A stretch of 14,897 bases of DNA from a bacterium. GTDB taxonomy: Bacteria; Blakebacterota; Blakebacteria; Blakebacterales; Blakebacteraceae. This document shows positions 1,592 through 13,914 of the stretch, piece by piece. A program made the translations under genes and the position numbers. The first letter of the stretch is position 1; every line of letters starts with the position of its first letter. The DNA lies in contig JALGWK010000044.1 in assembly GCA_025774205.1 (NCBI GenBank), positions 1-14,897 of the forward strand, written 5' to 3'. The notes below the pieces were generated by a model that was not told the origin of the DNA, searched no databases, and was given only the letters and a program-made list of their open reading frames with translations.

Positions 1592-3073
1592 ATGGTTTGC
1601 CCTGTGGCTCGATCCTGCTCTTTACCCAGGGAGTCGTTTGTGGCAGAGAATTCTTCATATACCGGTACACCACCCGACTTTCGGTACCGGGCTGTCCTGA
1701 GGCACGATCTCCCATCCCTGCCGCAGATACAGGCCCTGGATGCCGACGAACGACTGGCGATGATGGCCGTGAGCGCCGTCATGCCCTTCCGGGTGAACCG
1801 GTACGTGATAGAGGAACTCATCGACTGGGATGACATCCCCGATGATCCGATCTATCAGCTCACCTTCCCCCAGCGCGGCATGCTGGCGCCGGAGGACCTC
1901 TCCGTGATGCAGGACCTGCTGCTGAGGGACGCGTCCCGGGATGAGCTGCAGGAGGCCGCCCGGAAGATCCGTTTCCGGATGAACCCGCAACCGGATGGTC
2001 AGAAGCAGTACAACGTACCGCACCATCAGGGCGTACCGATCCCGGGCATGCAGCACAAGTATCCCGATACGGTGCTCTACTTCCCCAGCCAGGGACAGTC
2101 GTGCCATGCTTTCTGCAACTACTGTTTCCGCTGGGCCCAGTTCATCGGGGAGAAGGATCTCAGATTCCGGAGCAGTGAGACCGACCTGTTTCATGCCTAT
2201 CTGCGGGATCACCATGAGGTGACCGATCTGCTCTTCACCGGCGGCGATCCGATGGTCATGCGCACGAAGCACCTGCGGGCCTATATCGAACCTCTGCTGA
2301 GGTCGGATCTGGAACACATCAAGCAGATCAGGATCGGCACCAAGGCCCTTGCCTGGTGGCCGCACAGGTTCGTGAACGGGGAGGAAGCGGATGATTTCCT
2401 CCGTCTGCTGGAAGAGATCCGCGAGGCCGGGAAGCTGCCGGCGATCATGGCCCACTTCTCCCATCCCGTGGAACTCTCCACCGATATCACCAGGCAGGCG
2501 ATACGGCGGATACAGAGTGCCGGCGGCATCATCCGTACCCAGGCGCCGGTGGTCCGGCATGTGAACGATTCCGCCTCGATCTGGACAGAGATGTGGAAAA
2601 CCCAGGTCGCCCTCGGATGCGTCCCCTACTACCTGTTCGTAGCCCGGGATACAGGTCCGAAGGAGTATTTCAGGGTTCCCCTGGCTCGTGCCCTGCGGAT
2701 CTATCAGCGGGCCTCTCGCAGGGTCAGCGGTCTTGCCCGCACTGTTCGGGGACCGGTCATGAGCGCTCTGCCGGGGAAGGCGCATCTTACCGGAGAGGTC
2801 GAAATCCACGGAAAAAGACTGTTCACCCTCCAGCTGCTGCGGGGGCGGAAACCGGAATGGGAAAGGCGGCCCTTCTTCGCGCACTACAACGAGGAAGCCG
2901 CCTGGCTGACCGACCTGGAACCGGCCTTCGGGGAGCAGGAATTTTTCTGGGGCAGTGAATTAAGGGCCATGCTTCAACCGGGCAAGGGGCGTAAGCTGTT
3001 CCGGCGCACCGGGAAACAAGAGCACGCTGATCGTGACGTACACCGGTTGCAGGATCACCCGGAAAACCGATAG
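1592..3073 (+). CDS. KamA-family radical SAM protein (lysine 2,3-aminomutase-like)
   Basis: This protein is 493 residues from ATG 1592, or 477 from GTG 1640. Numbering from 1592, the radical SAM cluster motif CxxxCxxC is CHAFCNYC (C171, C175, C178), followed by F179-R180-W181. The SAM-binding TGGDP lies at 216-220. The segments PFRVNRYVIEELIDWD (65-80) and YQLTFPQRGML (88-98), and the C-terminal part with GRKPEWERRPFF, are typical of the KamA/lysine 2,3-aminomutase family. These enzymes use SAM and pyridoxal phosphate to move an alpha-amino group to the beta carbon. LPGK (K396) is a possible PLP lysine, but that assignment is uncertain. It is longer than EpmB, so EF-P modification is not the first guess. 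GTG 1640 may be the true start because AGGGAG sits six bases before it, but ATG 1592 also has AAGGGG eight bases upstream. The substrate is unknown. Confidence 0.88.
   Translation: MVCPVARSCSLPRESFVAENSSYTGTPPDFRYRAVLRHDLPSLPQIQALDADERLAMMAVSAVMPFRVNRYVIEELIDWDDIPDDPIYQLTFPQRGMLAPEDLSVMQDLLLRDASRDELQEAARKIRFRMNPQPDGQKQYNVPHHQGVPIPGMQHKYPDTVLYFPSQGQSCHAFCNYCFRWAQFIGEKDLRFRSSETDLFHAYLRDHHEVTDLLFTGGDPMVMRTKHLRAYIEPLLRSDLEHIKQIRIGTKALAWWPHRFVNGEEADDFLRLLEEIREAGKLPAIMAHFSHPVELSTDITRQAIRRIQSAGGIIRTQAPVVRHVNDSASIWTEMWKTQVALGCVPYYLFVARDTGPKEYFRVPLARALRIYQRASRRVSGLARTVRGPVMSALPGKAHLTGEVEIHGKRLFTLQLLRGRKPEWERRPFFAHYNEEAAWLTDLEPAFGEQEFFWGSELRAMLQPGKGRKLFRRTGKQEHADRDVHRLQDHPENR
1628..1633 (+). promoter_or_regulatory. 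Ribosome binding site supporting a GTG start at 1640
   Basis: AGGGAG ends six bases before GTG 1640, an ideal spacing. Starting there removes 16 residues (rich in Cys, Pro and Ser) that do not look like the family's N-terminus. The competing site AAGGGG at 1578-1583 serves ATG 1592, so the start remains open. Confidence 0.5.
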
Positions 3074-3156: not shown

Positions 3157-4518
3157 ATGGCTGTTTTCTCCAGAAAGAAGGGGAGCGAGGTACCTGTCGA
3201 AGCGATTGCTCCCGCATCGACTGCGGAACCATCCCGCTCACTATCAGCATCTCCGTCCTCGATTTCCACCTCCCACCTGGTGATCCTGAACCGGATCCTG
3301 TCGGCCACCAGAGGGCCGTATGACGTTCAGGAACTCCTCGAACTCCTGGTGAAGGAGATCGTGGACGCGGTCGGTGCCCGCTGGGGCACGATCAAGCTGA
3401 AGGCGGACGAGGAAGACACGGTCCACACCATGATCCGGCGCCCCGGGATCCGCGCCGGAACGGTGCCGCGGGCGATGGAGAACACCGCTTTCTTTCTGGT
3501 CATGGGCACCGGTGACTCTCTTGTCATCGATGACCTGGAGGGCGACTCCCGCTTTCCCAATTCAACCCAGGGGGTTGAATCGGCGAAATCCCTCCTGGCG
3601 GTCCCGATCCAGCATCAGGGCGAAGTCATCGGCGTTCTCGCGCTGGTGGATACAGACGACGGCCGTCAATTCAGAGATGAAGACATCGGGCTGACGACTC
3701 TGCTGGCGACAGAAGCAGGTCCCCTGATCGAGAACGCCCGGCTCGTCGAAGAGGCGCTGGAACAGAAGGCCATGGAGCGGGAAAGGGAACTGGCCGAGGA
3801 TGTCTGGAAGCGCTTTCTCCCGGCGGTGCTGCCGGAGATCGAGGGGTTCGATCTGGCCGCTCACTGCACACCGGCCCAGCGCATCGGCGGCGACTACTAC
3901 GACGTCATCAGTCTTCCGGACGGAAGAACGCTGGTTGCCCTGGGGGATGTCTCCGGGTCGGGGATGCCGGCCGCGCTGCTCATGAGCAACCTGCAGGCCG
4001 CCCTCCGGGTCGGTCTCGGCGCGACGACCGACCTTCCAACCCTGGCTGCGGCCGTGAACCGGCATATCTGCTCCACAACCGACGCGGAACGGTACGCGAC
4101 CCTCTTCATGGGGATCATGGATCCATCCCGGTGCCTGTTCTCCTTCGTGAACGCAGGACACAATCCCCCCGTGGTCTTTCGCGGCGACGGCAGCTGGCAG
4201 GAACTCGCGGCTACCGGTATCCCGGTCGGATTCATCCCCGACTCGCCCTACGAGTCAGCGGAGATCGATCTCAGCGCCGGAGATCGACTCATGATCCACT
4301 CCGACGGGATCCCTGAGGCGTTCTCGAAAGAGAACGAGATGTTCGGTGATGAACGTCTGATCGAGATGGTACTGGAGAAGAAGGATATCCCGGCCCGGGA
4401 ACTGCTGGACTCTATCCTCGGCGCGGTGGATGAGTGGACCGCCGGATCGGACGCCTATACCGACGACCGGACTCTGATCATCCTGAACTGCTGCAAAGAT
4501 CCGACCTGCCAGGAATAA
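3157..4518 (+). CDS. GAF domain-PP2C (SpoIIE/RsbU-like) serine phosphatase
   Basis: This is a 453-residue cytoplasmic protein. Residues 1-40 are a Ser-rich, probably disordered leader; 55-195 form a GAF sensor domain; 197-215 are a charged helical linker; about 228-445 are a SpoIIE/RsbU-type PP2C phosphatase. Catalytic motifs are present: RIGGDYYD (242-249, D246), GDVSGSGMPAALL (263-275, D264), NAGHNPP (332-338), SDGIPEAFS (382-390, D383) and DDRTLIIL (436-443). Such enzymes dephosphorylate a STAS anti-anti-sigma protein so that it can bind an RsbW-like kinase. A STAS gene lies 21 bases away and convergent, and an RsbW-like gene starts the same operon, so both partners are in the window. The ATG start has GGAG six bases before it. 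The gene follows the KamA-like gene by 83 bases with no terminator seen, so the two may be co-transcribed. Confidence 0.93.
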   Translation: MAVFSRKKGSEVPVEAIAPASTAEPSRSLSASPSSISTSHLVILNRILSATRGPYDVQELLELLVKEIVDAVGARWGTIKLKADEEDTVHTMIRRPGIRAGTVPRAMENTAFFLVMGTGDSLVIDDLEGDSRFPNSTQGVESAKSLLAVPIQHQGEVIGVLALVDTDDGRQFRDEDIGLTTLLATEAGPLIENARLVEEALEQKAMERERELAEDVWKRFLPAVLPEIEGFDLAAHCTPAQRIGGDYYDVISLPDGRTLVALGDVSGSGMPAALLMSNLQAALRVGLGATTDLPTLAAAVNRHICSTTDAERYATLFMGIMDPSRCLFSFVNAGHNPPVVFRGDGSWQELAATGIPVGFIPDSPYESAEIDLSAGDRLMIHSDGIPEAFSKENEMFGDERLIEMVLEKKDIPARELLDSILGAVDEWTAGSDAYTDDRTLIILNCCKDPTCQE

Positions 4519-4539
4519 TCCCGGGAGGTCCGGTCGCGG

Positions 4540-4893
4540 TCAACCCCCCTGGCGTTCCTTCATCGCGTCGAACGCCTCATCGACCGTCTCGAACGTGTCG
4601 AAGATCTTTACTACCTGTGTCAGCATGAAGAGGGAATTGACCTTCTTCGCGGCCTGGGCGACCACCAGGTCACCGCCGGCGTTCCGACAGCTCGTCAGGC
4701 AGCCCATCAGCAGTCCCAGACCTGATGAATTCAGCCACTCCACCTTGCCCATGTCGAGTACCACCCAGGGCATATTGTCATCTATCAGTTCTTTGATCCG
4801 ATCATGACAGACCTGCTGATCCGGTCCCCCCATCATCTTGCCGGAAACACTGACGACAGCCACCCCTTCCCGGATATTCTCCTTCAGTTTCAT
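4540..4893 (-). CDS. STAS-domain anti-anti-sigma factor (SpoIIAA/RsbV-like)
   Basis: This 117-residue protein is a single STAS domain. The phosphoacceptor loop VEWLNSSGLGLL lies at 51-62. By alignment with Bacillus SpoIIAA (FMDSSGLGVI, Ser58), Ser56 would be the phosphorylated residue; it is preceded by Asn55 instead of the usual Asp. The unphosphorylated form should bind the RsbW-like kinase and release its target; the kinase would phosphorylate it and the GAF-PP2C phosphatase would reactivate it. It is the last gene of the minus-strand operon, 112 bases after the GAF-HlyD gene. The frame stays open to 5028, but ATG 4893 is preferred because AAGGAGG lies seven bases before it and the domain begins right there (MKLKENIREG). 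Confidence 0.92.
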   Translation of the reverse strand: MKLKENIREGVAVVSVSGKMMGGPDQQVCHDRIKELIDDNMPWVVLDMGKVEWLNSSGLGLLMGCLTSCRNAGGDLVVAQAAKKVNSLFMLTQVVKIFDTFETVDEAFDAMKERQGG

Positions 4894-4900
4894 GACGGCA

Positions 4901-4907
4901 CCTCCTT
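4901..4907 (-). promoter_or_regulatory. Strong Shine-Dalgarno deciding the STAS start
   Basis: On the minus strand AAGGAGG ends seven bases before ATG 4893. It is the best ribosome binding site in the window and rules against the longer open frame upstream. It suggests that the small STAS protein is made in excess of its operon neighbours. Confidence 0.75.
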
Positions 4908-4918
4908 CGATATACGCT

Positions 4919-4933
4919 GGCGCGGATCGCGCC
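4919..4933. repeat. Perfect inverted repeat upstream of the STAS gene
   Basis: GGCGCG, a three-base spacer and CGCGCC form a perfect six-pair stem in the 112-base gap between the GAF-HlyD and STAS genes. No T-run follows on either strand, so it is not a standard intrinsic terminator. It could be an mRNA processing or stability element that separates STAS output from the rest of the operon, or a protein-binding site. Confidence 0.4.
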
Positions 4934-5005
4934 AATCCCGCCCGGTAATGGAGCGGTTTCAGCATTCGAACATGGGACGTTCGTGGATCGGAGGTGTTTA
5001 TCCGA

Positions 5006-6916
5006 TCACGACCACTTGCGGAGCGCAACGAATCTGACGAACGGTCTGGCTATGAACCAGAACAGGCTCCGCCGTCCCAGAGTGACTTTACCAATCCCTG
5101 TCATTCCCGGTCTGACCCCTTCAGGGGCATTGATCCGCACTGTCGCGATCAGTACCCGCTTGCCCTCACGGGTGTTCAGGGCGGCCGGGGCCAGTATATC
5201 AACTGCCCCGTCAAAGGTCTGTTCCACATAAGCATAGAACTTCATCTTCACCGGCTGGCCGAGTTTGACCAGGTACCAGTCACGCTCCGGAAGCGCGATT
5301 TCCACGCGGAATTCATCGAGGGTGCCGACCTCGCAGAACACATCACCTGAGGCAAGGTAATCACCCTGGCGCTCCTCCACGTGCGGTGTGATCACGACCG
5401 CGGGGAAGGGGGGCGCGATGAAAGTTGCCGCGAGATCCCGGCTGAGCAGGTTGAGTTGCTCCTGGTAGGCCGCCCGGTCGGCAGCGGCCTGCTGAGCGGC
5501 GTAATGATCGTTACGGGCCCGCGCGGCATGCTCGTCACGGGTTGCCTTGTCGAGGGCTCCTTCGACGTCCCGGTAACGCATTTCGGTGTCGAGACTGCGC
5601 AGTTTCCCGACCGGATTGTCGGGACCGACCACATCACCCTCCCGAGCAAAGACATCCTCAACCACTCCGGCGATTGGAGCCCGGAGCTGGAGTCGCTCGC
5701 CCGGGAAGACGACCGCGGTTCCGCCGGTCCGGTAGGGGATCTTCACCAGCAGCAGGGCTGCCAGGCCCAGAACCACCGGGATACCAGTGGTCCGCAGCCG
5801 CTTCTTGCCCGCCGCCCACAGCTTGCGGCGTTTCTCCATGATCGGTTCGAGGAAGCTGATGAATGGGACCTGGTGATAGAGCTCTGAATTACGGATGGCC
5901 ACCGAGGCCTGGTTGGCCATGATCCGGAGCAGTTCCATCTCCTCGGCACCGGGCAGGCCGCTGGTGCCCAGCTGGCAGTAGGCTCCCATGATCCCCTGAT
6001 CGTCCTTGAGGGGAACACCCCAGAAACTTGAGGTCTCGCTGGCCTCGAAGTGTTCGCGGAACAGGTCCTGCCCCTCGCCCTCGGGAAGATCCTTCAGGGT
6101 GGTCGCGATCTCGGTGTCGGCCAGGATGACGTATTCCATCAGACGCCGCAGGGCCTCCTGCTCCTGCTTCTCCGGCTTTTCACCACCGATCTCGTCGATG
6201 TTGAAGGTGCTCCCCTTCTGCATGCCGATGGCGCAGTACTTCAGTTCGGCCAGCGCCGAAGCCATGGTCACCATCGTCTTGAGGATGCGGTCGAGGTCGA
6301 GGGTAGAGGTGATCTCCTGGCTGATCTTGAGAAGGGTATCGAGATCCCGGAGTCGTTTCTCCAGCCGGTTGTAGAGCAGGGCGTGGTTCAGCGCGACCGC
6401 GGTGTGATTCCCGAGGCTGGCCAGGAACGCCAGTTCTCCGTCATCGAACTCCTCGCCGGTCGACTTGTCCCCGACGACCAGCGCCCCGGTGAGTTCATCC
6501 TCGATGAACAGGGGCACGTAGACAGCGTAGCCGGGATCGGAGAGTCCCGATTCCCATTCGTCGGCCGCCAGCACGGTCTGTCTGGTCACCGGCGCCTTCT
6601 TCAGAGAGGCGATCCACAGCGCGGTGATATCGGGCTCACTCCGTTTGAAGGCGTCCACATCCTCCTCTTCGAGACCCTGATGGGCCAGGATGTCGAACAC
6701 CGCGCCGCCCTGGGAGTAGGTTATCACCAGACCGCGGGAAGCGAAGACGCTGTCGAGGACACTTGCCAGCAGTTCGCTTCCGATGACACGTTCCTCATGA
6801 GTGGATGCGGTCAGCATACCCGCCTGATTGATCAGGAGCAGCCGACTCGCGGTCTGTTCCAGCTGGCGGTAGGCCGCATCCAGTTCCTGTCGAATGTTCT
6901 CTATTTCGTTGGTCAT
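5006..6916 (-). CDS. GAF-GAF-transmembrane-HlyD adaptor fusion protein
   Basis: This is a 636-residue fusion. After a short helix (5-28), residues about 25-180 and 190-345 are two GAF-type sensor modules joined by a helix containing LLYNRLEKRLRDLDTLLKIS. A basic stretch (362-376) and one membrane segment (about 377-392) follow. The C-terminal part is HlyD-like: a lipoyl half (408-440, LRAPIAGVVEDVFAREGDVV), an alpha-hairpin (446-500) and a beta-barrel (530-612) ending in GVRPGMTGIGKVTLG. The positive-inside rule puts the GAF domains in the cytoplasm and the adaptor in the periplasm. This would let a cytoplasmic signal act on a trans-envelope channel. The start lies one base after the stop of the M50-HlyD gene (TGATATG) and has no clear Shine-Dalgarno, so it is probably translated by coupling. 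No enzyme motif is seen in the GAF parts. Confidence 0.9.
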   Translation of the reverse strand: MTNEIENIRQELDAAYRQLEQTASRLLLINQAGMLTASTHEERVIGSELLASVLDSVFASRGLVITYSQGGAVFDILAHQGLEEEDVDAFKRSEPDITALWIASLKKAPVTRQTVLAADEWESGLSDPGYAVYVPLFIEDELTGALVVGDKSTGEEFDDGELAFLASLGNHTAVALNHALLYNRLEKRLRDLDTLLKISQEITSTLDLDRILKTMVTMASALAELKYCAIGMQKGSTFNIDEIGGEKPEKQEQEALRRLMEYVILADTEIATTLKDLPEGEGQDLFREHFEASETSSFWGVPLKDDQGIMGAYCQLGTSGLPGAEEMELLRIMANQASVAIRNSELYHQVPFISFLEPIMEKRRKLWAAGKKRLRTTGIPVVLGLAALLLVKIPYRTGGTAVVFPGERLQLRAPIAGVVEDVFAREGDVVGPDNPVGKLRSLDTEMRYRDVEGALDKATRDEHAARARNDHYAAQQAAADRAAYQEQLNLLSRDLAATFIAPPFPAVVITPHVEERQGDYLASGDVFCEVGTLDEFRVEIALPERDWYLVKLGQPVKMKFYAYVEQTFDGAVDILAPAALNTREGKRVLIATVRINAPEGVRPGMTGIGKVTLGRRSLFWFIARPFVRFVALRKWS

Positions 6917-6917
6917 A

Positions 6918-8921
6918 TCAGAAAAAGAAATCCAGGCGAAGGGTCTGTAAAGCGTTCCGCAGTAACTGTGCCCACAGTGACCGGCGCTTTCCGTAAAGAC
7001 GTACTTTGCCGCGCTGGCCCGGTACCAGGGCCAGTTCGGTGTTGTCGAACACTATCTCGACTCCGTACCAGGCTTCGCCGTCCGCGACCCGTTCACCGAC
7101 GAGGTCCATGACGACGATCCGTCCTTCCACGACCTCCCAGGCCCGGGAAGCCGGCTTGAATTTCACTAGCGAACCATACTCGACGTCCGCCATCTCCCGT
7201 TCGGGCACTTCGAGGCGTGCCCTGAGGGAATCTGTCACGCCGACCTGGATGAGCAGTTCTCCCTGCCGGACGTAGCGGTGTTTCATCTCACTCACATGAG
7301 CGTTCAGCACCCGTCCCGGGAAGGGAGCCTTCATGGTCAGGCGGTCCATCCGGGCGAGGATGAGATCGCGGCTCTCCTCCAGCCGGCTGACCTGGGTGAA
7401 ACAGCGATTCGCCTCGGTATCGTCACCGCGCGCGAACGCCTCTCCCGCCTGAGCGCGGAGATTCCTGATATCATGTTTGATACCGCTCATTTCGAGATCG
7501 AGGCCGTTGCTCTCGATCACGGCCAGCAGCTGGTCCCGCTCGACATAATCTCCGGTCTCCACGAGAACATCGATCACCTGACCGGCAGCGGCCGCTTCCA
7601 TGTTCACCTGCAGGTACGGTTCGAGTATCGCGAGGCGCTTGTCCACCGTCGGCGTGCGTATGAACGCCGGGAGGATGAGCAGGACAAGTACAACCGAAAC
7701 CGCGATGGGGATGTTCCGGCGGATCGATCCCGATCGGTCCATTGCAGCCAGTTTCACGAACCCGGCCCCTTTCTTGATGAATCTTCTGAGCAGGATGTAC
7801 ATCAGGAACGCGAGCAGGATCCAGCCCATCGCCGCCATGCTGCCGACCAGCCACTTCTTGAGCAGTCCGTAAATGAGCGAGAAGATGAAGATCGAGTAGC
7901 AGAAGGCCATGATGCTGAAGATCAGGTAGATACGTTTCTCCCGTCGGCCCCCGATGGGCATGTCTCCGGGCAGGCCGAACAGTCTCTTCCACTGATAACC
8001 CAGGTAATCGAACGACCGCTTCCTGAGGTTCGGGACATCCACGAACTCGCTCAGGGCGTAGTAGCCGTCGTACTTGAGCAGGGGGTTCATGTTGAAGATC
8101 CACGACGAGATGCTGGAGAAGATGACGATCTTGAAGGCGAAGTCGTGGATATGCAGGGTGGGATCGGTCAGCCACCAGACAAAGACGAAGGTAGCGCCGA
8201 CGAAGAGTTCCACCAGCGGCCCCCCGAAGACCACCATCACCCTCGAGAACTTGCTCGGAAAGCGATAGGAATCACTCACATTGCAGAAGAGGGCGGGGTT
8301 GATCAGATAGATGATCAGCAGACCCATCTGATGGACCTCTCCGCCGTAGTACTTGCAGGTCAGCCCATGCCCGAATTCATGGATCACGATGATCAGGATG
8401 ATGCACAGGTAGAGGACCACGATCTGCGCCAGCGACCAGCCTTCGAAGATGTAGAAGGAGGAGAGTCCCGCCCAGGTCGCCTCCCAGTTGCCGATGAGGA
8501 TCACATAGGAACCGATCACGAGCGTCCAGAAGAAGGCCAGGAATGCCTTCGAGGTCACCCACTGGAGCCGCCCGATCATCCAGTTGAACAGGTTGTCCGG
8601 GTCGATGGCCGTGAAGCTCATGTGGAGCAGGGTGTTCCGTTTCTCCCGTTCCCGCCGGACCTTCTCCATCAGGAGGATGTTCATCTCCAGCCGGTCGCGG
8701 AAGATGAGTTTCATCCCGACCAGGTGTTCGAGGTACTGGTTGACGTAATCCAGGTCGAAATCCCACTCAGTGAACTCTTTACCCAGCTGGTTGGCGATCT
8801 CCTGGTGTGAGTGCTTCCCGTCACACAGTTCACAGAACCGCTTCCCCAGTTCGTCGAACTGCATGTACTTGCGGCGCACCGGGTCCTTGGCGATGAAGAT
8901 CTCCTCACCGCGCATGACCAC
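6918..8921 (-). CDS. PqqD-like/M50 metalloprotease/HlyD fusion (putative peptide zinc metalloprotease)
   Basis: This is a fusion of about 667 residues. Residues 1-75 resemble a PqqD-like winged-helix domain (IAKDPVRRKYMQFDELGKR, then DGKHSHQEIANQL). About 127-420 hold roughly seven membrane segments with the M50 zinc site HEFGH (181-185) and the distal NPLLKYDGYY (279-288, D285), a likely third zinc ligand. Residues 437-645 form a HlyD-type adaptor: lipoyl halves around AAAAGQVIDVLVETGDYV and LTMKAPFPGRVLNAHV with a short hairpin between. Related M50 proteins are linked to peptide processing and export (YydH-type). The start is unclear: GTG 8921 and ATG 8915 lack a well-spaced ribosome site, and the family homology seems to continue a few codons upstream to a TGA without any start codon. 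Confidence 0.9.
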   Translation of the reverse strand: MVMRGEEIFIAKDPVRRKYMQFDELGKRFCELCDGKHSHQEIANQLGKEFTEWDFDLDYVNQYLEHLVGMKLIFRDRLEMNILLMEKVRREREKRNTLLHMSFTAIDPDNLFNWMIGRLQWVTSKAFLAFFWTLVIGSYVILIGNWEATWAGLSSFYIFEGWSLAQIVVLYLCIILIIVIHEFGHGLTCKYYGGEVHQMGLLIIYLINPALFCNVSDSYRFPSKFSRVMVVFGGPLVELFVGATFVFVWWLTDPTLHIHDFAFKIVIFSSISSWIFNMNPLLKYDGYYALSEFVDVPNLRKRSFDYLGYQWKRLFGLPGDMPIGGRREKRIYLIFSIMAFCYSIFIFSLIYGLLKKWLVGSMAAMGWILLAFLMYILLRRFIKKGAGFVKLAAMDRSGSIRRNIPIAVSVVLVLLILPAFIRTPTVDKRLAILEPYLQVNMEAAAAGQVIDVLVETGDYVERDQLLAVIESNGLDLEMSGIKHDIRNLRAQAGEAFARGDDTEANRCFTQVSRLEESRDLILARMDRLTMKAPFPGRVLNAHVSEMKHRYVRQGELLIQVGVTDSLRARLEVPEREMADVEYGSLVKFKPASRAWEVVEGRIVVMDLVGERVADGEAWYGVEIVFDNTELALVPGQRGKVRLYGKRRSLWAQLLRNALQTLRLDFFF

Positions 8922-8969: not shown

Positions 8970-9857
8970 CTATCTCAGTTCCAGTTCCACGGTCATGCCC
9001 GACCGTAATCCGGCTTCTCTGACCTCGACGGTGATCTTGACACCACCTCCGGGATCCACCACCGGGCTGATCAGCTGCAGGGTGCCCCAGACCTGTTGGG
9101 GGTTACTGCTGTCGGGATCTACGTTGAGTCTGACCGGCTGATCTGTTTCAAGTTCTGCGACATGGCTCTGGGGAATGGTGAACACTGCCCACAGGACGTC
9201 GAGATCGGCGATTGTGAAGCATTCCTCCTGCATCCCGATCCACTGGCCGGCCTGGATCCTCCGCTCGATCAGGTGACCGGAGATCGGCGCCGTGATGTCA
9301 GTATACCCCAGCTCGATGAACGCCAGCGCCGAATCAGCCTGCGCCTGCCGGTATTCAGCCCGGCTGACATCGAGTTCGAGTGCAGACACGATCCTGATTC
9401 GCGCCTCCTCACCGGATGCCTCCAGATTGCGCTGGTAGATTGCCCGCGAGCGATCCGCCTCCGCGGCAGCTCTGCCAGCCCTCAGCTTGTAAGATTCCCT
9501 GTCGATTGAGGCGAGTACGTTCCCCGCTGACACCCGATCACCTTCCTCGACATTGAGCTCGTTCACCATGCCCGGAACCCGGTTGAGCACCACCACCTGT
9601 GACTTCGGAGTGAAGATGGTCAGATACCGTTGTTCATCCTGCCTGTCGAGTGCCTGTCGCCCGGGAGTCGTTCGTCGCCCAGCCCCTGATTCTGCCGGTC
9701 GTACCGACGGTCGCAGGGCAGGAATCTCGGAATCAGGAGTGAGGTTCACCGCTTCTTCGGCCGAGGCGTCTTCCGATGCCGCACCACGGCCGCAGGCCGC
9801 GATCGTCAGGGGGATGATGACCACGGCTGTCATTGTCAGGAACGCGTTCTTCTTCAC
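8970..9857 (-). CDS. Periplasmic adaptor (membrane fusion) lipoprotein, HlyD/RND type
   Basis: This is a 295-residue lipoprotein. A signal peptide with a hydrophobic core at 6-20 ends in TIAAC, with Cys22 as the lipidation site; a low-complexity linker follows to about residue 75. The adaptor core has the lipoyl half VPGMVNELNVEEGDRVSAG, a short alpha-hairpin (about 120-175), the second half DITAPISGHLIERRIQAGQW and a beta-barrel to the end (GLRSGMTVELELR). In pumps such adaptors join an inner-membrane transporter to TolC. Here no transporter gene is next to it and its neighbours are M50 proteases. It starts with GTG (9855-9857) with AAGGAG eight bases upstream. It follows the first M50 gene by 28 bases and precedes the M50-HlyD gene by about 50. 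Confidence 0.9.
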   Translation of the reverse strand: MKKNAFLTMTAVVIIPLTIAACGRGAASEDASAEEAVNLTPDSEIPALRPSVRPAESGAGRRTTPGRQALDRQDEQRYLTIFTPKSQVVVLNRVPGMVNELNVEEGDRVSAGNVLASIDRESYKLRAGRAAAEADRSRAIYQRNLEASGEEARIRIVSALELDVSRAEYRQAQADSALAFIELGYTDITAPISGHLIERRIQAGQWIGMQEECFTIADLDVLWAVFTIPQSHVAELETDQPVRLNVDPDSSNPQQVWGTLQLISPVVDPGGGVKITVEVREAGLRSGMTVELELR

Positions 9858-9885: not shown

Positions 9886-10935
9886 TCATAGTCGATTCAG
9901 CCCTTTCCGGGCTATCCGATAGATCACGTACAGAACCAGCAGCAGCCAGTCGGCCAATGCCGTAAACACGAGCAGGAACAGGGCCATACCGAGCCGGACG
10001 ATCTCCAGAGCCACCTGAATAAATGGCGCTGTCCGCCACCGTTCGAGCCAGTCGGGTGCCTTCCTGAACCTCGTCAGCGGTTTCCAGCTGACTGCCTCCC
10101 GCAGGACCATGGCCATGTCGCTGGCGCCTGAGGGAGCCCAGGCATAGACCAGGAAGTAGACTGTCTGAGGAAGGAGCAGGAAGAGGGGAACGGGGCCGGG
10201 CGCCAGAATCCACCATATCCAGGCTCCCACCCACCAGACCGTATCGCTCAACAGTCCGCCAGCATAGTACCAGATTCTGTCTTCCGGTGTCAGGAGGATA
10301 TCCCGGTTCGAGAGGACGTAGAAATTGAAGTTTCGCTGGATGCCGATCTCGGGGACCTCTCCGTCGAATCGACGGATCGCCAGGGCGTGCCCCAGTTCAT
10401 GGAAGAAGGCCGTGACCGAGTACCCCAGGTAGTAGCCGAGGATGACCACTACCGGTCCCAGGATCAGGTGGAAGCGGGCCAGGTCTCCGAGGGCGACGAT
10501 GAGGTCGGCTCCCCTGGCGAAGGTCAGCACGAATCCGGCGGCCGCCAGCAGGAGAGCGATGATCCCGATCAACCGTCTGCCGTAGAGATACTGGAGCGGT
10601 CTCACGAACCTGAGGAGTCCGGCCGGATCGAACTTCACCATGCGGCGGGACTTCACCTCTGATCCCTCGAGATAGCCGTAGGTAATCCAGCGGGTGAGGA
10701 TGTCCCGCACATCATCATCGCCCAACCCCCAGTCGTACCGGTTGTTGATCTCCCCGCACAGATCGGAGAGCGATCTGCCGTTACACATCTCAAGCACGGC
10801 GGCGGTGCCGTCGTCGATGATGAACGCGTCCAGTCCCGGACCGGAGATATGGACCGCGCCCCCCTTCAGGATCCGGTACTCGACCCCCTCCCGGACGAGA
10901 GGGTTATCCAGCGGGGTTGTGCTCTCAGGCGCCAT
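9886..10935 (-). CDS. PqqD-like/M50 family membrane metalloprotease
   Basis: This is a 349-residue membrane protein. Residues 10-95 form a small PqqD-like domain (FIIDDGTAAVLEMCNGRSLSDLCGEI is typical of such winged helices). Membrane segments follow at about 120-140, 155-176, 225-245, 248-266 and 310-338. The zinc-protease motif HELGH (179-183: H179, E180, H183) lies at the end of a segment, and D273 in SGASDMAMV is a candidate third ligand. Unlike its paralogue at 6918-8921 it has no HlyD domain. Its ATG lies inside the end of the RsbW-like gene (11-base overlap) and has GGAG six bases before it, so the regulator and protease are translationally coupled. Its substrate is unknown; neighbours suggest a peptide or protein exported through the adaptor/TolC parts. 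Confidence 0.9.
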   Translation of the reverse strand: MAPESTTPLDNPLVREGVEYRILKGGAVHISGPGLDAFIIDDGTAAVLEMCNGRSLSDLCGEINNRYDWGLGDDDVRDILTRWITYGYLEGSEVKSRRMVKFDPAGLLRFVRPLQYLYGRRLIGIIALLLAAAGFVLTFARGADLIVALGDLARFHLILGPVVVILGYYLGYSVTAFFHELGHALAIRRFDGEVPEIGIQRNFNFYVLSNRDILLTPEDRIWYYAGGLLSDTVWWVGAWIWWILAPGPVPLFLLLPQTVYFLVYAWAPSGASDMAMVLREAVSWKPLTRFRKAPDWLERWRTAPFIQVALEIVRLGMALFLLVFTALADWLLLVLYVIYRIARKGLNRL

Positions 10936-11344
10936 TTGTATCTCCGTTGACCTGAAGCACGACGGTCAGGACGTTCCAGCCATCGTCGGAATATTCGTAC
11001 GTGGTCGAGGCGGCCATCTGTATGACCAGGGGCAGTCCACGCTTTCCTTCCATCAGCTGCAGTTCCGGCTGCTCAACCTGGAGGGGATCGAAAGCAGGTG
11101 ATCGGTCACGGATGGTCAGCGTGATCTGATCCCCTTCGATCTCCATTTCCAGGTCGATCGGACCCGGCTCATCCCGGTATCCGTGCCGGATGATGTTCAG
11201 GACGACCTCTTCGATCACCAGTTCAGCGGTGAGCAGGAGATCATTCTGTCCCAGGAACTCGATTCGGGAGCGGCAGAACTGCATCAGACTTTCAAGTGCC
11301 TCCGGTCCCGAGGGGACGCTGATCTGCAGTGATCCTCCCCTCAT
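10925..11344 (-). CDS. RsbW-like anti-sigma factor/serine kinase (HATPase_c_2)
   Basis: This protein is 139 residues from ATG 11344. The GHKL ATPase motifs are visible: the N-box ELVIEEVVLNIIRHGY (41-56, with E46 and N50), a G1 box RDRSPAFDPL (79-88) and a G2 box GKRGLPLVIQMA (100-111). In the G1 box Ser82 stands where a Gly is common. Such proteins bind and inactivate a sigma factor or another target and phosphorylate their STAS antagonist. No sigma factor gene is in the window. It is the first gene of the operon ending with STAS. The open frame extends to GTG 11443, but that codon has no ribosome site and the domain begins at about 11344. ATG 11344 itself has only a weak, distant GGGAGG, and a CTG further in with GGGGAGG before it is a less likely alternative. 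Confidence 0.85.
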   Translation of the reverse strand: MRGGSLQISVPSGPEALESLMQFCRSRIEFLGQNDLLLTAELVIEEVVLNIIRHGYRDEPGPIDLEMEIEGDQITLTIRDRSPAFDPLQVEQPELQLMEGKRGLPLVIQMAASTTYEYSDDGWNVLTVVLQVNGDTNGA

Positions 11345-11436
11345 GGTTCTCTCAGGCGCCTCCCGGATATCGGGGAACCGGGTAGCCCGGGTTGAAGGGA
11401 GCAGCCGCCCGACCTTGAATGAGGGGAAAAAGGGGA

Positions 11437-11487
11437 ATTCCACATTCAGTGCGGACTTCTATTCCACACTGATGCGTGAATTCCACA
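11437..11487 (+). repeat. Three direct ATTCCACA repeats (possible activator or repressor sites)
   Basis: ATTCCACA occurs at 11437-11444, 11461-11468 and 11480-11487, with start-to-start spacing of 24 and 19 bases. The third copy sits in a near-palindrome, GTGAATTCCAC. The group lies about 110-160 bases upstream of the sigma-54 -24 box, the usual distance of enhancer sites for AAA+ activators. It also lies just downstream of a possible minus-strand promoter, so it could instead control the operon. The function is inferred from position only. Confidence 0.45.
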
Positions 11488-11597: not shown

Positions 11598-11612
11598 TGG
11601 CACGCGCTTTGC
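11598..11612 (+). promoter_or_regulatory. Sigma-54 (RpoN) -24/-12 promoter
   Basis: The sequence TGGCACGCGCTTTGC matches the sigma-54 consensus TGGCACG-N4-TTGC at every defined base, with the GG and GC doublets exactly 12 bases apart. Transcription should begin near 11624, about 35 bases before the start codon of the repeat-protein gene. Sigma-54 promoters need an AAA+ activator bound upstream; none is encoded in the window. Confidence 0.85.
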
Positions 11613-11658: not shown

Positions 11659-12165
11659 ATGACTGACGAACCACGCAAGCCGGTCTTCAAGGAGAACGAG
11701 GAGCTCGAGGAGAAGGAAGCTCCCCGTCGGGCGCCGATGGGTGAGGAACTCCAGGAGAAGGAAGCTCCCAGGCGCGCTCCGGTAGGTGAGGAACTGCAGG
11801 AGAAGGAAGCCCCGAGGCGGGCTCCGATCGGTGAGGAACTGCAGGAGAAGGAAGCTCCCAGGCGTGCTCCGGTAGGTGAGGAACTGCAGGAGAAGGAAGC
11901 CCCGAGGCGGGCTCCTCTCGGTGAGGAACTGCAGGAGAAGGAAGCTCCCCGGCGCGCTCCGCTCGGTGAGGAACTGCAGGAGAAGGAAGCCCCCAGGCGT
12001 GCACCGATGGGTGAGGAACTGCAGGAGAAGGAAGCTCCCAGGCGTGCACCGATGGGTGAGGAACTGCAGGAGAAGGAAGCTCCCCGGCGCGCTCCGATGG
12101 GTGAGGAGCTGCAGGAGAAGGAAGCTCCGCGCCGTGCCCCGATGGGTGAAGAACTGCAGGAGTAG
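11659..12165 (+). CDS. Repeat protein of ten 15-residue GEELQEKEAPRRAPx units
   Basis: This is a 168-residue protein of unrecognised family. A 13-residue head (MTDEPRKPVFKEN) is followed by ten tandem 15-residue units and a final EELQE. Each unit reads EELQEKEAPRRAP, then one aliphatic residue (M, V, I, V, L, L, M, M, M, M in order), then G. The units contain no Cys, Ser, Thr, Asn, Asp, His or aromatic residue. They alternate an acidic helical-looking half with a Pro/Arg half. No signal peptide or membrane segment is present. Base differences between units are almost all synonymous in this frame, which supports the plus strand. ATG 11659 has GGGGG seven bases before it, a sigma-54 promoter 47 bases upstream and a terminator after the stop, so it is a complete single-gene unit. 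It could be an exported peptide precursor or a structural or binding protein; this is inference. Confidence 0.85.
   Translation: MTDEPRKPVFKENEELEEKEAPRRAPMGEELQEKEAPRRAPVGEELQEKEAPRRAPIGEELQEKEAPRRAPVGEELQEKEAPRRAPLGEELQEKEAPRRAPLGEELQEKEAPRRAPMGEELQEKEAPRRAPMGEELQEKEAPRRAPMGEELQEKEAPRRAPMGEELQE
11698..12162 (+). repeat. Tandem repeat array, 45-bp unit, ten full copies plus a partial copy
   Basis: Ten 45-base units (11698-12147) and one 15-base partial unit lie inside the repeat-protein gene. Units 2 and 4, and units 3 and 5, pair up as near-identical copies, showing an earlier 90-base duplication; units 7 and 8 differ by one base. The first half of each unit is nearly invariant even at silent sites, while the APRRAP half varies at silent sites. 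There are no spacers, so it is not a CRISPR array. Confidence 0.95.
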
Positions 12166-12206: not shown

Positions 12207-12248
12207 CGGGGGTGTTGGACCAGTCACGGTTCAGCGCCCCCGTTTTTT
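12207..12248 (+). terminator. Strong rho-independent terminator of the repeat-protein gene
   Basis: A 15-pair stem (12207-12221 with 12228-12242) has no mismatches if three G-U pairs are allowed, encloses the loop AGTCAC and is followed by six T. A smaller hairpin, CACCC-gtaa-GGGTG, precedes it at 12180-12193. The T-run exists only for plus-strand transcription. The stop codon of the convergent TolC-like gene overlaps the T-run. Confidence 0.9.
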
Positions 12249-13914
12249 ATCTGCCACGAGCAAATGGTACTGAGGGAATCGTCTGTCGACGGACGGCGGT
12301 ATTTGTCTCCCAATCGAACATGGTGATCTCCCTCAGCCTGGCTTTACCTTCCTCATAATCGATCATGGCGTCCATGAAGAGGGTTTCAGTCTGGAGATAT
12401 CGCTGTTGGGCGAGCAGCAATTCGGTATAGCGGATCTCTGCCTTTTCGAATTGTTCCTGACTGATTTCATATCCCGCTCTGGCAAGATTCCTGTTCTGTG
12501 CCTGCAGTTCCATGCGCTGCATGGCGCTCTGCATGGCGCTGACATGCTCAACAACAGTAGCGTGCAATTCGAACTGTACCTCTTCCGTTTCCCTCATGAG
12601 CACTCTCTGCTCGGAAGCGATCTGCTGGATCCTCGATTCATTGGTACGGGAGTCTGAGATTGGTAACCGAAAAGAGAGGAATACGTTCAGGTTTGGTTTG
12701 ATATAATCCGGATCAAGGCCCGCCTGCAGGTGGTCGAACCATCCGTCATCCCGGTCGGAGCCAGCTTCCGTCGAGTTCGCACTGTAATCGATGCCGATAT
12801 TGAATTGCAGATCAGGCTTGTTCCGGCTGATGGTCTTCTGTATTTCCAATTCGGCTTTTTCGACTTCGATCTGGGCTCTCCGTTCGTCGGAACGATTCTG
12901 AAATGCCATCTCGAGCGCTCGTTCCAGGTCGATCTGGATCGGTCTGAAGGTCTCGTCAGCATCGACCACGAGTTCAAAGTCGGGATCGATTCCCACCGTG
13001 CGGTTGAATGTAACTCTCTGACTGTCCAGTTCGTGACGGGCCCGAAGCAATCGATCCTGGCTGTTCGCCATCTCTACCTCAAGACTCAGCTTCTCCATCT
13101 CGGGGATCAGGCCGAGCTCATATCTGCGCAGACCGGTTTGATAGTTGACTTCACTCTGCTTGAACATCTGATCCGAGATATCCAGCAATCGCTGCCTTGT
13201 ATAGAGGGAGTAAAAAGCAAAGGTGATCTCATTGATCCGCTGTATCTCCACTTCGTTGTAACTCAATTCCAGGCTTTCCAGGTCGAGTTCAGCTTCCCGC
13301 AGATGTCCCTTGATGGTGTTGTACTGGAATAGTGGTTGGTTGAAATCCAGCGAAATGCGCGGCATTACATACCGTATTCCCATTTTCGGGCTGGTGAACA
13401 GGAATTCAGGAGAGAGCGCTTCCATGTGCCGCTCGAAGCCGGTCATTCGCGTGGACAAGGTGATATTACCGTTTGTTTTCAGAGGCTGGACTATATTCAG
13501 GGCGGCTGTGACGCGCGTCGTTTCCTGTTTGAACAGTACCAGGTCGAGATGGGCAAGATCGGTATAGAGCTGGTTTACATACCCCTGAGTTCTTTTCGGC
13601 AGCAGCGAGTCCAGATAGATACGCGTCCTCAGACTCCGCCTGGCCTCTTCAAGACCGTACGCCAGCTGGAGGTATCGCTCCGTCAGTCGGTAGATATCGA
13701 ACGAGCCATCCAGGGCCAGTTGCACCGCGTCATCGAGTGTGATAACCAGTGGAACACGCTGAGCAGCAGGTCCTGCCCACAGGAGACTCCTGTCTGATTC
13801 GGGAGGTTGGCCTCCATCCGGCACTGACTGTCCGGAAATCGCGCCCTGGGGAACGCAGAACGTTAGTCCGGTCAGAACAGCGGTCCACTTGACAAATATT
13901 CGGAATCGACGCAT
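12247..13914 (-). CDS. TolC-like outer membrane efflux/secretion channel
   Basis: This is a 555-residue outer-membrane protein of the TolC (OEP) family. A signal peptide covers about 1-28 (RRFRIFVK, a hydrophobic core, AISG). Two OEP repeats follow: the first begins near ITLDDAVQLAL (58-68) with the long helices at 205-305, including RYELGLIPEMEKLSLEVEMA. The second begins near IDLERALEMAF (328-338) with helices at 425-530, including RYTELLLAQQRYLQTETLF. Beta-strand-rich parts lie between (about 135-195 and 368-420). TolC proteins form trimeric tunnels that dock on periplasmic adaptors, and three adaptor modules are encoded in the operon to the left, so this is their likely channel. The ATG has AAAGGAAG eight bases upstream. 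It follows the Kelch gene by 71 bases on the same strand and ends convergent with the repeat-protein gene. Confidence 0.92.
   Translation of the reverse strand: MRRFRIFVKWTAVLTGLTFCVPQGAISGQSVPDGGQPPESDRSLLWAGPAAQRVPLVITLDDAVQLALDGSFDIYRLTERYLQLAYGLEEARRSLRTRIYLDSLLPKRTQGYVNQLYTDLAHLDLVLFKQETTRVTAALNIVQPLKTNGNITLSTRMTGFERHMEALSPEFLFTSPKMGIRYVMPRISLDFNQPLFQYNTIKGHLREAELDLESLELSYNEVEIQRINEITFAFYSLYTRQRLLDISDQMFKQSEVNYQTGLRRYELGLIPEMEKLSLEVEMANSQDRLLRARHELDSQRVTFNRTVGIDPDFELVVDADETFRPIQIDLERALEMAFQNRSDERRAQIEVEKAELEIQKTISRNKPDLQFNIGIDYSANSTEAGSDRDDGWFDHLQAGLDPDYIKPNLNVFLSFRLPISDSRTNESRIQQIASEQRVLMRETEEVQFELHATVVEHVSAMQSAMQRMELQAQNRNLARAGYEISQEQFEKAEIRYTELLLAQQRYLQTETLFMDAMIDYEEGKARLREITMFDWETNTAVRRQTIPSVPFARGR

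Follow-up and report, generated by a model that had tools for sequence, protein, structure and literature searches.

The window analysed here, 14,897 nucleotides long, is one whole contig of a bacterial genome assembly of 3.09 Mb (527 contigs, 86% complete). It holds a small gene for a tandem-repeat protein, with an operon of M50 metalloprotease and HlyD-type adaptor genes on one flank and a TolC gene on the other. The features are as follows.

1592-3073: KamA-like radical SAM protein
3157-4518, plus strand: GAF-SpoIIE phosphatase (partner switching)
4540-5028, minus strand: STAS domain protein (partner switching)
5006-6916, minus strand: GAF-GAF-HlyD adaptor
6918-8921, minus strand: PqqD/RRE-M50 protease-HlyD fusion (HEFGH, NPLLKYDG), real start probably more upstream
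8970-9857, minus strand: HlyD-type periplasmic adaptor
9886-10935, minus strand: second, smaller M50 protein (HELGH; NF041824, E 3e-7)
10925-11443, minus strand: RsbW/SpoIIAB-type HATPase, divergent from the repeat gene
11434-11487, plus strand: putative enhancer, with TTCCRCA at 11438, 11462 and 11481 and inverted TGCGGA at 11450
11598-11612, plus strand: sigma-54 promoter TGGCAC-GCGCT-TTGC
11659-12165, plus strand: repeat protein, ten 15-residue units, each with EL(E/Q)EKEAP, then a GEELQE stub
12207-12248, plus strand: intrinsic terminator, 15-bp hairpin and T6
12247-13914, minus strand: TolC-type outer membrane channel

The open reading frame runs from the ATG at 11659 to the stop at 12165 and encodes 168 residues, arranged as MTDEPRKPVFKE, a first unit NEELEEKEAPRRAPM, nine copies of GEELQEKEAPRRAP(V/I/L/M) and the stub. 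Tandem Repeats Finder (TRF) reported a single array (11708-12162, period 45, 10.1 copies, 89% matches, no indels), so that both translation and TRF agree with the coordinates and the ten units given in a preliminary description of this DNA. The nine full units differ at position 15 alone, where the residue is V, I, L or M. Between them pS was 0.36 and pN 0.03 (0.005 when position 15 is left out), and in the sister genome the corresponding values were 0.55 and 0.04. Such an excess of pS over pN indicates protein-level selection or homogenisation rather than an accident of the DNA, and a purely DNA-level origin, by replication slippage only, was ruled out on the same ground. The protein is hydrophilic throughout (48% charged residues, C-terminus ...GEELQE), its units lack Cys, Ser and Thr, and its sole Thr is residue 2. 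The gene is single-copy in its own genome.

Upstream of the gene, the sigma-54 box matches TGGCAC-N5-TTGC exactly and is kept in all three homologues described below, and the hairpin downstream (about 12207-12242, followed by the T run) has a folding z-score of -5.6; the promoter and the terminator that had been proposed for this gene are thus both borne out. The three TTCCRCA sites and the inverted TGCGGA lie 110 to 165 bases 5' of the box and are conserved; the spacing of the three sites, 24 and 19 bases, is identical in the three genomes, within DNA that has otherwise diverged. The exact core TTCCRCA-N5-TGCGGA occurs once per gene-bearing genome, at the repeat-gene promoter, and a genome-wide search for an enhancer regulon revealed no further exact core in any of them. 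To judge from the sequence, the three-site block and the sigma-54 box form the layout expected for a putative enhancer-binding activator. A GAF-AAA+ activator gene lies immediately 3' of the repeat gene in one relative (G002) and about 3 kb downstream in another (G001); the window stops short of the position that it occupies in G001. On the other strand, the HATPase gene more likely starts nearer 11343, outside the enhancer block.

Outward from the repeat gene, the minus strand carries in order the RsbW-like ATPase, the small M50 protein, the HlyD adaptor, the PqqD-M50-HlyD fusion, the GAF-GAF-HlyD adaptor and the STAS protein, past which GAF-SpoIIE lies on the plus strand. A partner-switching set (SpoIIE phosphatase, STAS protein and RsbW-like ATPase) is therefore embedded in the locus, at 3157-5028 and 10925-11443. 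Residues 16 to 389 of the fusion protein matched NCBIfam NF041824 (daptide_HExxH, RRE-site-2 protease) with an E value of 4.6e-54. The score, 184 bits, is below the equivalog cut-off of 300, which makes the protein a relative and not an equivalog. It has the make-up of an RRE-site-2 protease, namely an RRE/PqqD domain at the N-terminus and, fused to it, an M50 part that keeps HEFGH and NPLLKYDG. In AlphaFold models both M50 proteins open with strands and continue with three helices, in the PqqD/RRE order; for the small one the predicted order, three strands then three helices, comes from a model of low confidence (51.5). The PqqD-like domains earlier ascribed to the M50 neighbours are thus found again, in the NF041824 match and in this fold order, the latter with the reserve just stated for the smaller protein. 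Foldseek with the fusion protein gave only HlyD/MacA-type adaptors among the matches listed. The locus has no conserved RiPP-modifying enzyme, no daptide-type aminotransferase, decarboxylase pair or methyltransferase was found among the window genes, and a search of its own, incomplete genome for a dedicated SecA paralogue or export ATPase found none (SecA n=1).

The phylum sample consisted of four genomes, that of the window (G000) and G001, G002 and G003. The repeat gene was present in three of them (G000, G001 and G002); G003, 63% complete, has neither the gene nor the M50/HlyD operon. In all three carriers the gene is divergent from an operon of PqqD/RRE-type M50 and HlyD adaptor genes. 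Operon gene order is identical in G001 and largely kept in G002 over two contigs, and the operon proteins are 55-61% identical between genera. The array of G001 has seven units, 15 residues each as in the window. That of G002, which belongs to another genus, has 21-residue units ELEEKEAPRRASVFGEEDAPM followed by 12-residue units LLEEKEAPRKGA, and the contigs break within it. Between the genera L(E/Q)EKEAPR(R/K) is kept, and the spacer varies in sequence and in length (units of 15, 21 and 12). The motif E-K-E-A-P-R, searched as encoded in the DNA, has no other occurrence in the genomes of the phylum. The KamA-like gene is conserved in G001 and missing from the matching stretch of G002. The latter genome also has a MATCAP/DUF1704 carboxypeptidase (L071:1981-3249) in place of the RsbW-like ATPase, flanked by the M50 gene on one side and the enhancer block on the other.

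These comparisons bear on several points of the preliminary description. Homologues lying apart from any M50/HlyD operon would have spoken against its reading, and 3 of 3 carriers are linked. The repeats for which it advised a search beside PqqD-M50-HlyD genes elsewhere were found in G001 and G002, and no arrays were present at the other M50-HlyD loci fetched. Its placing of the gene between the operon and TolC is right for the window but does not hold in G002, where TolC is not adjacent; likewise the lack of Cys, Ser and Thr is true of the window but not of the G002 units, which hold Ser (RRASVF). Beyond the phylum no homologue of the repeat protein is known: Pfam, NCBIfam and PDB gave no match, no relative was found among phages and viral contigs, and the plasmid tblastn matches (LPD7, SesJ) were low-complexity likeness only.

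The repeated motif resembles one already described for daptides: ELExMEAP, found in the leaders of precursors whose partner is an RRE-site-2 protease (PMC10036551). The daptide leader is removed by the RRE-dependent peptidase MpaP, and cleavage occurs directly after the ELExxxxx motif (PMC12338566). In the window the first unit reads ELEEKEAP and the remaining ones ELQEKEAP, that is 6 and 5 of the 7 letters of ELExMEAP; the units of G002 have either ELEEKEAP or LLEEKEAP. When all other loci retrieved were translated in six frames (about 0.99 million residues), a match of at least 6 of 7 was found in three stretches only, all of them daptide-like precursors with a C-terminal Thr, beside the M50 gene of one genome (G247). 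Composition-matched shuffles reached the observed match with p = 0.0018 for the first unit, 0.0012 for the G002 unit, 0.009 for the whole protein and 0.025 for the 15-residue unit tiled. A profile HMM of related 16-residue motifs gave no significant result, the motif being too short: 762 of 5000 whole-protein shuffles equalled the window protein. By itself the motif likeness is suggestive, and it becomes convincing solely when joined with the gene neighbourhood. The three precursors of G247 (L097:2920-3692) contain QELEALEAP or QELETLEAP, have a C-terminal Thr and a core rich in branched-chain residues, and provide a natural positive control.

Homologues of the PqqD-M50-HlyD protein were surveyed in 386 diverse genomes and then in 95 genomes of the phylum of one of them (G087). 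This phylum has 12 such loci, and in nine of them one to four small ORFs lie immediately upstream of PqqD-M50-HlyD; the remaining three are not intact at the 5' end, so that all nine intact loci have the peptides. The ORFs contain (I/V)ExLE(E/A/Q)RIAP, with Gly-, Ser- or Asn-rich tails after it. At loci L143-L149, L151 and L154 peptides with ELE(E/A/Q)RIAP have Gly/Ser/Asn/Asp-rich tails (for example GSKDDHGSKAHA repeats), and as many as four paralogues stand side by side. Peptides of the same type are also present in a different phylum (G345). LE(E/Q)RIAP had 19 matches in the 386 genomes and was N-terminal in a small-peptide ORF in two, both beside PqqD-M50-HlyD. In G298 a 25-residue peptide, MVYNLMIEELEEKVAPGGFSLGGQH, with ELEEKVAP, lies 3' of the PqqD-M50-HlyD gene, and in G178 and G031 divergent proteins of more than 1000 residues have the N-terminus KKKGV(K/R)V(Q/E)KLDEIVAPG. 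Two proteins of this size with KLDEIVAPG N-termini (L107:217-3360 and L108:3472-6873), encoded divergently from PqqD-M50-HlyD, are built of NPDGS...CPPGTTYDANAGT-like repeats and have no obvious signal peptide. NCBIfam gave no match for the representatives at L109, L114, L107 and L108, nor Pfam for the small-peptide representatives. Every other system found had one motif per polypeptide.

A further group of homologous loci was compared on alphaproteobacterial plasmids of Methylosinus, Thalassospira, Pseudosulfitobacter and Pontibrevibacter. Their operons run from a giant protein through GAF-HlyD or HlyD, PqqD-M50-HlyD, a SecA-like ATPase (three of four plasmids, that of Pontibrevibacter assigned from its DEAD/DEAH annotation alone) and HlyD to TolC (two). 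Three of the four giant proteins bear the annotation LEPR-XLL; that of Methylosinus, annotated LamG, reads DTLEPRVLLNAD. With a giant LEPR-XLL gene and GAF-HlyD, PqqD-M50-HlyD, short SecA-like ATPase, HlyD and TolC genes, the operon (L160, L161, L165, L167 and L158) looks like a dedicated secretion system. No published description of it, or of an RRE-M50-HlyD export machinery, was found in the literature searched. The motifs of all these groups fall into one alignment register: ELExMEAP of daptides, ELE(E/A/Q)RIAP, ELEEKVAP, KLDEIVAP, (L/I/M)EPRxLL and EL(E/Q)EKEAP of the window.

An array of this motif stands beside a daptide-related protease, and similar motifs occur at homologous loci; the repeat is therefore best taken as a recognition and cut motif, not as an arbitrary core. 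Since each unit holds a close form of the motif used by RRE-M50 proteases, a multi-copy precursor is the leading model. Context and motif together give good support to recognition of the array by the RRE-M50 protein, and we infer binding by the RRE, cleavage at each unit and export. In the reading that we lean towards as somewhat probable, the protein serves the adjoining RRE-M50 protease, HlyD and TolC as a substrate built as a tandem array, cut after each EAP and exported. Sigma-54 and an activator acting at the enhancer would switch expression. EL(E/Q)EKEAP in each unit would be bound by the PqqD/RRE domain of the M50 protein, and the protease would cleave following ...EAP, yielding an N-terminal piece MTDEPRKPVFKENEELEEKEAP, nine copies of the 15-mer RRAPxGEELQEKEAP, where x is M, V, I or L, and a short C-terminal stub. 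HlyD and TolC would carry the peptides out. The preliminary description had proposed a multi-copy peptide precursor connected with the PqqD domains; linkage in three of three carriers and the likeness of the unit to the RRE-M50 motif agree with this, but the conserved part is the presumed recognition and cut motif and not a core peptide. Its other suggestion, a scaffold or antifreeze-like function, found no support in this analysis.

Several observations count against this reading. The unit is short and Glu-rich, so that the shuffles and the profile HMM described above set it apart only modestly or not at all; it has Lys at -4, and none of the other systems found has an array for comparison. 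The predicted products are very hydrophilic, unlike the usual substrates of site-2 proteases; no dedicated export ATPase was found, and TolC does not adjoin the gene in G002. The main rival, which we consider unlikely while giving it real weight, is a multivalent RRE ligand that stays uncut, be it a sponge, an activator, a scaffold or a disordered surface protein exported whole. A fully hydrophilic protein with 48% charge, a motif strictly repeated in seven to ten copies around a spacer unconserved between genera, two RRE-type M50 proteins within one locus, and sigma-54 control, as is usual where dose is regulated, would all suit such a ligand. However, in the sole characterised family having such a protease the motif is the cut site, and homologous loci hold substrate-like proteins and no decoys.

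It is improbable that the repeat protein is a low-complexity protein with a part in stress, desiccation or structure, unrelated to the operon and its neighbour by chance, with a motif likeness that stems from a Glu/Pro/Ala-rich composition. The shuffles gave p values of only 0.001 to 0.025, the HMM test was negative and no homologue is known beyond the phylum, all of which this explanation would accommodate. Against it, linkage is retained over two genera whose operon proteins are 55-61% identical, the G002 repeats retain exactly the motif in a different composition, and the same motif class adjoins homologous proteases in other phyla. A multi-core RiPP precursor with cores modified before release, for instance by the KamA-like radical SAM protein (1592-3073), is very improbable: that gene lies in the same region in G000 and G001, and RRE domains are present, but it is missing from the corresponding G002 stretch, no other modifying enzyme is conserved, and the cores consist only of Arg, Ala, Pro, Gly and one aliphatic residue.

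Returning to the tandem-array substrate, we suggest more tentatively that each chain may give a single unmodified peptide in some nine copies and that the locus may be a branch of a wider RRE-M50-HlyD export machinery. As part of the same tentative proposal, this machinery would also handle the LExRIAP peptides and the giant LEPR-XLL proteins, by way of a single motif class x-L-(E/D)-x-x-x-(A/L)-(P/L). Daptides are the setting in which RRE-M50 proteases are known, and there these enzymes take off the leader after ELExMEAP. The locus suggests that an HlyD-fused protease of the same type serves many further secreted proteins, and that one phylum made a tandem array out of the recognition motif. 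If so, the LEPR-XLL motif of giant proteins would gain a testable role, and the repeat protein would be an unusually clean in vitro substrate, with ten sites per chain, for RRE binding and site-2 cutting.

Among known systems, the YydH/LiaK epipeptide maturation metalloproteases (NF058609) share a weaker match in the M50 part (E 3.4e-13); they have an epimerase-type radical SAM partner, none being conserved here, and a different precursor. Daptides share the protease family (NF041824, over the RRE and M50 parts), short precursors beside the protease, and ELExMEAP against EL(E/Q)EKEAP. In contrast to the ten motifs of the window protein, each daptide precursor has one; its Met(-4), essential for binding by the RRE of MpaB, is Lys(-4) in the window motif. 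Daptide clusters contain an aminotransferase, a decarboxylase and a methyltransferase, of which the window locus has none, and use an ABC exporter, whereas the window has an HlyD fusion and TolC. Daptide cores are hydrophobic and end in Thr. The window protein lacks the C-terminal Thr and the hydrophobic core, and its locus the modifying enzymes, and it is therefore not a daptide. The LEPR-XLL operons share the GAF-domain HlyD, PqqD-M50-HlyD, HlyD and TolC genes, and (L/I/M)EPRxLL stands in the same register. They also hold a SecA-like ATPase and DUF3467, neither of which is in the window locus, and their substrates are thousands of residues long with one motif; with 168 residues and no NCBIfam match, the window protein was rejected as a LEPR-XLL protein. 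The small ELE(E/A/Q)RIAP peptides share motif, gene neighbour, size and a low-complexity remainder. They differ in having one N-terminal motif and a Gly/Ser/Asn-rich tail, whereas the window protein consists of the motif from end to end.
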